In this document: positions 23,185 to 37,204 of the stretch, piece after piece | Layout of the letters: each line of letters begins with the position of its first letter | Numbering within the stretch: position 1 is the stretch's first letter | Assembly: GCA_016875875.1 (NCBI GenBank) | Contig: VGOP01000001.1 | Location: 142,501 to 206,500 of the forward strand | Direction of reading: 5' to 3' | DNA: 64,000 nt | Origin: Chloroflexota bacterium | Lineage (GTDB): Bacteria > Chloroflexota > Dehalococcoidia > GIF9 > UBA5629 | Made by a program: the position numbers and the translations under genes | Notes under the pieces: model-generated | The model's input: only the letters and a program-made list of their open reading frames with translations | Database searches by the model: none | Told to the model about the DNA's origin: nothing

Positions 23185-24186
23185 ATGTGGGATGCTTCTA
23201 AGTGCAACTTTTGTGGCGATTGTTTGCTGAAGTGTCTTTATGTTGATTATGACAAGGACAGGGCCGTAGCTGAAATCAAGGCGCTTATAGAAGGCAAACG
23301 GGCTGAAATCTTGATCCAATGTGTCACTTGCTGTGCCTGCAGGGAGTATTGTCCTACAGGAGCTGACCCCTATGACCTTATCCTGAAGGCACAAGAGAAA
23401 TATGGGGCATTTCCCGTGCCCACGGAAGTAGCAGCTGCGTTCGACTTTGTTGCTCAGATTCCCAGTGAGCTGATACCTGGTGACCCCGATAAGCCTGTAC
23501 TCTCACTCTGTGTTATGGAGCGCCAGCTTCCTGAAGGAGCCCTTAATAGCCAGTTATTTGAAGGTATGACCATAGTCAAGGGAGGAGACTATTTTTGTTA
23601 CATCGGCTATGTGCATGTTGGCAAAGAAAGCCCCATTGAGAAGAGTGCCGGGAAATTCATTGATAAAATTGCCAGCTTGGGTAAGGAAATCATATTCATC
23701 CACGATGACTGCTATGCTATGGTACATGCCAAGGTCAAGGACTACGGTGTCACTGTGCCATTTAAGTACAGGCATATCTTCGAATACCTGCGCAATTATC
23801 TGAGAGACCACCGGAGCAGCGTTACCAAGCTAAATAAGAAGGTGGCTTACCAGCGTCCCTGTGCTTCGAGATATACTCCGGAGAAGGACGTCTTACTTGA
23901 TGAGATTTTCGAGCTCATTGGAGTGGAGCGAATGCCGCGGAGATATGACCGTGAGAGCGCTCTCTGTTGCACAGGCCCGCTGATCAATGTCAACCGGGAG
24001 CGGGCTGTTAGCATACAGGTAAAGAATATCGGAGATGCCATAGCTAGTGGTGCTGATGCTTTAGTTACCCTTTGCCCTGTGTGTGATCGTGTGCTGAGGC
24101 GTCCGACCTCAGAACGGGGCTTTAACAAGATTTTCATTACCGATCTCTGTCGTATGGCTCTAGGGGAGAAGTTGTTTCCGGCATAG
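23185..24186 (+). CDS. Hdr-like (Fe-S)-binding protein, soluble
   Basis: A 333-residue protein with a two-cluster ferredoxin N-terminus (CNFCGDCLLKC; CVTCCACREYC) and two cysteine-rich CCG-type segments: DYFCYIGY with HDDCYAM, then YQRPCASRY, ALCCTGP and TLCPVCDRV. It has no transmembrane helix. It resembles HdrC-HdrB joined in one chain. The position 60 bases after the HdrDE-like gene suggests a complex. Substrate unknown; heterodisulfide reductase activity itself is not implied. Confidence 0.85.
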   Translation: MWDASKCNFCGDCLLKCLYVDYDKDRAVAEIKALIEGKRAEILIQCVTCCACREYCPTGADPYDLILKAQEKYGAFPVPTEVAAAFDFVAQIPSELIPGDPDKPVLSLCVMERQLPEGALNSQLFEGMTIVKGGDYFCYIGYVHVGKESPIEKSAGKFIDKIASLGKEIIFIHDDCYAMVHAKVKDYGVTVPFKYRHIFEYLRNYLRDHRSSVTKLNKKVAYQRPCASRYTPEKDVLLDEIFELIGVERMPRRYDRESALCCTGPLINVNRERAVSIQVKNIGDAIASGADALVTLCPVCDRVLRRPTSERGFNKIFITDLCRMALGEKLFPA

Positions 24187-32612: not shown

Positions 32613-32640
32613 TACCGAGGGAGGGACTCGGACTTACACC
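32613..32640 (-). repeat. tRNA-Leu 3'-end remnant (distal attachment-site scar)
   Basis: Bases 32615-32630 match the 3' end of tRNA-Leu(UAA) at 37124-37139 sixteen of sixteen, and 23 of 26 over 32615-32640. Same orientation as the intact gene. Too short to be a tRNA; it has the geometry of an att site left by integration into the tRNA 3' end. Confidence 0.7.
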
Positions 32641-35918: not shown

Positions 35919-36160
35919 AGCATACCTCCTTTGAAGTTTAAGCTGATGCTAACCATTGCACCTGTGCTATACAGAAAGGCATTATATCATGTCAATGAAC
36001 CGTGAAACCATACTAATTAGCAGGCACTGGATGCAACCAGTCTGCGTGGTCACGGCAGAATTCATTTGTTCCAGGTAGGACATGGCGAAAGGTCTGCAGA
36101 TTACAAGATACCATAGGTGCAGTCAGGGGCTGATTAACAGTTTGTATATGGGAGGTAATA
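35919..36160. other. Intergenic stretch between the DUF819 gene and the tRNA remnant
   Basis: Probably holds the promoter of the minus-strand operon; I see no confident box pair and no gene. Confidence 0.4.
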
Positions 36161-36203
36161 GTGCCGCGGGAGGGACTCGAATCCACATCTCCTCGGGGAG
36201 AGC
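36161..36203 (-). repeat. Second tRNA-Leu 3'-end remnant (attachment-site scar)
   Basis: 38 of 43 bases match 37121-37163, the 3' end, T arm and variable arm of tRNA-Leu(UAA); mismatches fall at offsets 7, 22, 28, 34 and 36. Similarity stops before the anticodon arm, so this is not a functional tRNA. Same orientation as the intact gene. Confidence 0.75.
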
Positions 36204-36239
36204 TCGATGTTTGCGGCAGACTGCCGCAGGCTAGATGGC

Positions 36240-36941
36240 TCAGCCGCCGCCGAAACCTACCTTGACCTCGTCTCCGCTGACTAGAATGGGCACTATGCCC
36301 TTGCCGCCAGATAGACGCATGACCTTTTCGATGGCCTTGGGATTGTTTTCAGTGCTGATTTCCTCATAGGACACGCCGCGCTCCTCGAGGTCCTGCTTGG
36401 CTGCAGCGCAGTAGGGACAACCTGGCGTGGTGTAGATAACTACCTTCTGTGGCACTGTGGCGACCTTCCGCTTCTCATCCAGCTCATAGAGCTTCTCGAT
36501 GACGAACTGCACATAGTTGTCGCATTTATCCTTCCAGATTCCAGACTCCTGGAACTGCTGGTATCCGCCGGGCTTGGAGAAGTCTATACCAACCAGGTCA
36601 AGGCAGATGATGGTACCGAACCTTTTGGTGAAACTCCTGACCAGTTCGTTAGCATCCTGGCGTGCATCGAGCCGCGCCTGCTTTGCCTTCTGCTTGTCTT
36701 CTGATGAGCAGCGATGGTGCAGTCCCAGATACACTGCCCCGGAAGATATGGCTCCACAGGGTGCTTGTTGCTGGCCACCTATGCCACCGGTGAAAGCGAT
36801 GCCTGGCCAGAGCAGGTCTTCATTGCCTAGTTCGTAGGCTTCCCACATAACTTGCAGGACTGCGGGGCCTCAGTGATAGCCGCGGTGCATGAGCTCGAGA
36901 GCGCGCTCCTTGGCCTCTTGTAACGACATCTTAAGCGTCAT
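36240..36941 (-). CDS. Candidate selenoprotein: C_GCAxxG_C_C redox domain fused to glutaredoxin
   Basis: Two frames split by a single in-frame TGA (36872-36870) join into one 233-residue product. Residues 1-120 form a C_GCAxxG_C_C domain: GYH-U24-GPAV where the family has its first Cys, then CGAISSG (C62), C113 in IICLDLVG and C140. Residues about 165-233 are a glutaredoxin-like domain with CPYC (C175, C178). The protein continues through the TGA with no loss of similarity, so U24 is probably selenocysteine. Start ATG 36941 has AAGGA seven bases upstream and a TTGACA-type promoter further up. A 9-bp hairpin directly follows the TGA. If the host has no Sec machinery, this would instead be a pseudogene. 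Confidence 0.72.
36837..36869 (-). promoter_or_regulatory. Candidate bacterial SECIS hairpin after the UGA
   Basis: On the minus strand, directly after TGA: GGC (36869-36867) pairs with GCC (36839-36837), and CCCGCA (36866-36861) pairs with TGTGGG (36847-36842) with an AA bulge. The 13-base loop starts with G, and a small inner CU/AG pairing is possible. The loop lies closer to the UGA than in the E. coli fdhF element. Confidence 0.45.
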
Positions 36942-37025: not shown

Positions 37026-37121
37026 GGAATCCGAGAAGCCGGCAAAGGCCAATGTTGCAACGCAGTGTCAGGGGGAATATTCTGTTAACCGGTCACCAGG
37101 GTAGGGTTAACGGAACTAAAG

Positions 37122-37204
37122 TGCCGAGGGAGGGACTCGAACCCACACCTCCTTGCGGAGAGCGGATTTTAAGTCCGCCGCGTCTGCCATTCCGCCACCT
37201 CGGC
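37122..37204 (-). tRNA. tRNA-Leu (UAA)
   Basis: Class II tRNA with long variable arm. Acceptor GCCGAGG/CCTCGGC, anticodon loop CTTAAAA, discriminator A; CCA not encoded. Its 3' end is the apparent target of two past integrations (see 36161 and 32613). Confidence 0.95.

Follow-up and report, generated by a model that had tools for sequence, protein, structure and literature searches.

The question raised by this locus is whether a TGA codon inside an otherwise continuous redox-protein gene is read as selenocysteine (Sec), and whether it is the only codon in the gene to be read in that way. The window, meaning the whole 64,000-nucleotide stretch of Chloroflexota DNA that was analysed, carries on its minus strand a frame opening at 36941 whose single internal TGA falls at codon 24 (36872–36870) in the context GYH-TGA-GPAV, and in whose translation C62, C113, C140 and the CPYC cysteines (C175/C178) are intact. 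An earlier note on this DNA had placed the lone TGA at the first cysteine of the C_GCAxxG_C_C family, with the other motif cysteines and CPYC kept, and had proposed a candidate selenoprotein; translation and Pfam bear out the first statement, and the conserved TGA, the exchange of Cys and Sec among homologues and the presence of sel machinery support the second. The same note took the protein to be 233 residues long and the TGA at 36240–36242 to be terminal. That codon is followed by GCC ATC TAG, and read through it gives a C-terminus of GFGGG-U-A-I-stop; given that the orthologous fusions all read GFGGG-U-x-x-stop, the gene had been cut short and its probable second Sec missed. The gene is real, and its product, as predicted from sequence, very probably contains two selenocysteines.

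The domain searches place the protein in a family that has already been curated. It scores 442.5 bits (cut-off 325) against the NCBIfam model NF045501.1, 'HUGP/GUXX-star fusion selenoprotein', and a search of the genome with this model aligned positions 1–236 of 236 across two TGA codons. Both hallmarks of the model are present, namely the H-U-G-P motif (GYH-TGA-GPAV) and the Gly-U-x-x-stop end (GGG-TGA-GCC-ATC-TAG), and the sequences and model positions suggest that 'HUGP' denotes the first motif and 'GUXX-star' a terminal Gly-Sec-x-x-stop. The C_GCAxxG_C_C domain spans residues 22–153 (36483–36878, minus strand; PF09719, 59.6 bits, cut-off 27) and shares the Cys pattern of PF09719 and TIGR01909, with Sec at the first position; it differs from that family in being fused to a glutaredoxin and in scoring slightly under the TIGR01909 cut-off (43.3 against 47.4 bits). 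The glutaredoxin or Uxx-star domain follows at residues 167–233 (36243–36443, minus strand), recognized by the Pfam model PF00462 over residues 167–225 (50.3 bits, cut-off 22.9) and by the NCBIfam Uxx-star model NF041212 (105.4 bits, cut-off 66), and includes the CPYC dithiol motif at residues 175–178 (36408–36419, minus strand). With the Uxx-star family it has in common the glutaredoxin fold and the Gly-Sec-x-x-stop tail, whereas here the domain is fused behind a C_GCAxxG_C_C selenodomain and its CPYC motif is Cys-Cys. From NF045501.1 itself the protein shows no difference in domain order, in its two Sec positions or in its 236-position length. In a recent review (PMC13188914, 2026), a table citing Haft and Tolstoy 2025 lists the fusion family with two Sec. 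The finding is therefore sound and mostly not new, the gene being a member of a curated family.

The first TGA (36870–36872, minus strand; codon 24, U24) was compared across 35 homologues, comprising the window and 34 metagenome-assembled genomes whose records assign them to Chloroflexota or Deltaproteobacteria. The column, which corresponds to the opening cysteine of the C_GCAxxG_C_C motif, holds TGA in 31 and Cys in the other four. Shortly after this codon the TGA forms are nearly frozen in their synonymous choices: codon 28 is GTC and codon 29 CTG in 31/31, codon 31 is only ever GTT or GTC, and codon 34 is GAA in 30/31. Mean normalised codon entropy is 0.24 over the core of the hairpin described below and 0.82 in the remaining domain (p = 3e-4, a value to be taken descriptively because the sequences are related). 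At codons 28 and 29 three of the four Cys forms depart from this pattern; the remaining one follows it there but has lost the loop sequence.

These codons form the first SECIS-like hairpin (TCCTGCA-AGTTA-TGTGGGA; 36841–36859, minus strand), a 7-bp stem with the loop AGTTA, which has G at loop position 2 and lies 17 nt after UGA-1. All seven pairs form in 30 of the 31 TGA homologues; the most distant homologue has a single mismatch. Within the window, the 9-bp hairpin that the earlier note proposed at this site is indeed the fold of minimum energy; relatives do not conserve its outer arm, however, and the conserved SECIS is the inner 7-bp stem. Published rules for bacterial SECIS elements call for a loop of 3–9 nt, a stem of 4–16 bp, G in loop positions 1–2 and a spacing of 16–37 nt (PMC13188914); this hairpin and a second one beyond the stop codon both conform in loop size, loop G and spacing. 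A search of the locus against Rfam returned no SECIS family.

The second TGA (36240–36242, minus strand; codon 234, probable U234) must be argued differently. No Cys form was seen at codon 234 among the homologues (against 4/35 at codon 24), so that Sec at this position rests on conservation of the U-x-x-stop and on the second hairpin. TGA-x-x-stop ends all eight full-length fusions, with the final stop varying between TAG, TAA and TGA; the orthologous tails read GFGGG followed by UAI, UTI, UAV or UTV, and a stand-alone glutaredoxin homologue from another family of the same class (L094) ends GFGGGUHI. The presence of TGA-x-x-stop in every full-length fusion, together with a family model that continues two positions beyond codon 234, sets the gene at 36231–36941 (minus strand; 236 codons plus TAG), with the TAG at 36231–36233 (minus strand) as the probable true stop. 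Beyond that TAG, 18 nt after UGA-2, lies the second SECIS-like hairpin (TGCGGCA-GTC-TGCCGCA; 36212–36228, minus strand), a 7-bp stem closing a 3-nt loop, GTC. Among the eight fusions (seven distinct), four of its seven pairs have changed on both sides, 96 per cent of cells pair, and the covariation score is equalled by none of 500 shuffles and far exceeds the slid controls, all this for 17-nt segments that were hand-cut prior to alignment, which biases them towards structure. It might be supposed that codon 24 alone encodes Sec and that the codon-234 TGA is an ordinary stop closing a 233-residue protein, as the earlier note had it, and the missing Cys form at 234 and the fact that TGA ends 12 of 41 long frames in the window would fit such a reading. 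It is nevertheless very unlikely, given two further codons and a stop at identical spacing in 8/8 fusions and in the stand-alone homologue, a covarying hairpin past the stop, and a curated model that covers positions 234–236.

The more drastic alternatives, that the gene is a nonsense-mutated pseudogene or that TGA has come to encode a standard amino acid throughout the genome, fare worse still and may be set aside as barely credible. Both TGA codons are kept at identical positions across Chloroflexota and proteobacteria, and other stops or frameshifts, which the earlier note had regarded as evidence against its proposal, occur in none of the full-length fusions. Pairwise dN/dS against the window downstream of the first TGA is 0.12 (L048), 0.13 (L051) and 0.09 (L050), synonymous sites being near saturation against more distant relatives; by this sequence measure, purifying selection is acting downstream of the first TGA. 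Genome-wide recoding was rejected because the window uses TGA for normal termination, at the ends of the 12 of 41 long frames already mentioned. What can be said for a pseudogene comes from genome G036 (loci L008 and L054), where a TAG breaks into a glutaredoxin half of degenerate appearance, showing that decay does occur in the family. At L054 (404–1036) the Sec codon 24 is kept, a TAG lies between the domains and the glutaredoxin half is degenerate; to judge from its sequence, this fusion is apparently being reduced to its first domain.

Reading the two UGA codons as Sec would also demand the decoding machinery, and the earlier note had proposed looking in the genome for selA, selB, selD and a selC tRNA with UCA anticodon. 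All four are present and clustered on a single contig of the window's genome (C12), and selD has its own in-frame TGA near the N-terminus (GAGUASKL), making it of the Sec type. The relatives carrying the Sec form show the machinery to varying extents: selA, selB and selC in G001, G009 and G036, selB and selC with a partial selA in G015, selC only in G003 (77 per cent complete), and selA only in G012 (87 per cent) and G020 (81 per cent). The Cys-form genome G054 (86 per cent complete) yielded no selA and no selB above cut-off, and its best match to tRNA-Sec was a tRNA-Ser, whereas all of selA, selB and selC are present in its Sec-form congener G036. It is highly probable that this is a functional double-selenoprotein gene whose UGA codons 24 and 234 are read as Sec. 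In the cell, SelB and tRNA-Sec(UCA) would insert Sec at both, each UGA being served by its own SECIS-type hairpin 17–18 nt downstream, the second past the TAG.

The product would be a 236-residue redox protein with a helical C_GCAxxG_C_C domain, in which the selenol of U24 replaces the first Cys and C62, C113 and C140 are kept, followed by a glutaredoxin domain bearing the CPYC dithiol and a GGG-U-x-x tail with the second selenol. An AlphaFold2 model built on 32 sequences (mean pLDDT 84.6, pTM 0.66, the placement of the domains being uncertain) has a helical N-terminal half, weakest at residues 41–60, and a thioredoxin-like C-terminal half that matches glutaredoxins. A PDB fold search matched essentially the glutaredoxin half only, with no hit at E < 0.001 and no N-terminal match supporting a mechanism. 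In thioredoxin reductases, a tail Sec exchanges with the enzyme's dithiol. By analogy, the tail selenol U234 may exchange with the CPYC dithiol and electrons may then pass to U24, which would reduce a disulfide, Se-S or similar substrate; such a relay, running from the C-terminal selenol by way of CPYC to U24, is put forward tentatively, at somewhat short of an even chance, and the biochemical function and the substrate are likewise conjectural.

It is also possible, if rather doubtful, that the protein is no electron relay and instead binds or detoxifies metal(loid)s, the selenols and cysteines acting as ligands. The Sec residues of UXX-star proteins may be metal ligands or contact unknown substrates (PMC13188914), and some homologues have upstream neighbours whose sequences, on inspection by eye, resemble ABC-2 type permeases. 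Set against this are the intact CPYC motif and glutaredoxin fold, and the heterodisulfide-reductase-like CCG/ferredoxin proteins found beside three proteobacterial homologues (L058, L076 and L077), in one of which (L076) the neighbour ends 31 bp upstream of the fusion; these neighbours favour thiol or selenol redox chemistry. The window has a heterodisulfide-reductase-like CCG/ferredoxin protein of its own at 23185–24186 (plus strand), 12 kb from the gene and 50 per cent identical to that of L076 (4944–5969), and on sequence grounds it is a possible redox partner. No partner gene recurs across the fusions, whose neighbouring genes differ.

Two further candidate selenoproteins came to light among the loci compared. 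In five Dehalococcoidales loci (L063, L064, L066, L067 and L069) the gene downstream of a HUGP-only gene encodes a protein whose N-terminus is AGUPG-like, in which an in-frame TGA comes after a signal-peptide-like stretch (e.g. EPTLAGUGDPTVRLTVDV in L064), and which is perhaps another selenoprotein. The window's genome also encodes a separate glutaredoxin (L100; G000:C2:34602–34793) with an in-frame TGA at the active site (STTTUSWCIKVKQ), likewise a candidate selenoprotein.

How the gene came to lie where it does is suggested by its surroundings. It begins ∼180 bp after a tRNA-Leu(UAA) gene (37121–37204, minus strand), and just after hairpin 2 there is an att-like repeat of the 3' end of that tRNA (36160–36203, minus strand; 44 nt, 89 per cent). 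A third copy (32613–32634, minus strand; 22 nt with 3 mismatches, chance expectation 0.00) follows the TauE gene, the interval between the two copies being filled by the next three genes (DUF819, PLP-decarboxylase and TauE). The ∼0.96 kb segment bounded in this way holds the selenoprotein gene only, which suggests an accreted single-gene island cassette; there is no integrase gene in it. Two close relatives (L048 and L051) are arranged alike, down to the spacing between gene start and 3' copy. In L049 the gene is found instead 40 bp after a tRNA-Leu(UAG). In L050 it is the sole gene between a tRNA-Leu pair and transketolase; a transketolase pair closes the tRNA-Leu interval in several genomes, and the content between tRNA-Leu and transketolase varies from genome to genome.

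Other members of the order carry 3' copies of tRNA-Leu(UAA) 1–5 kb downstream that enclose other genes (G013 twice, G051, G057, G058 and, more weakly, G052), and the copies are absent at 11 of the 20 loci examined. The tRNA-Leu site thus appears to be an integration hotspot common to other genomes of the order with different cargo. A tRNA linkage of HUGP genes as a class was considered and rejected, for although a same-strand tRNA lies within 500 bp upstream at 8/35 loci, a downstream 3' copy of the upstream tRNA is confined to the window, L048 and L051, being absent in L049, L050, L054, L055 and L057. There is a parallel in the ssrA islands of Dehalococcoides: these lie in tandem, an RNA gene and directly repeated copies of its 3' end mark their limits, and 15 of them are without an integration module (PMC3146451). 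The window's locus shares with them the flanking RNA gene and the direct 3'-end repeats, whereas its target is tRNA-Leu(UAA), its cargo is a single gene of ∼0.96 kb and its mobility is putative. We offer, as a speculation with less than even support, that a minimal mobile cassette including both SECIS elements accreted at a Dehalococcoidia tRNA-Leu hotspot with integrase supplied in trans, lasting acquisition being limited to genomes with Sec machinery.

These observations give independent comparative support to a curated family founded on sequence analysis. To it they add a first hairpin visible as frozen synonymous codons that differ in Cys forms, a second that covaries past the stop codon, and the absence of Sec machinery from the one Cys-form genome examined. 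They also caution that a gene caller or a reader can miss two Sec codons within one gene. In the portions of the literature on the NF045501 family that could be consulted, no prior account of the tRNA-Leu setting or of a SECIS comparison was found. The tRNA-Leu cassette is the part of the finding most worth following, its repeats marking a testable route by which a selenoprotein gene may spread among Chloroflexota.
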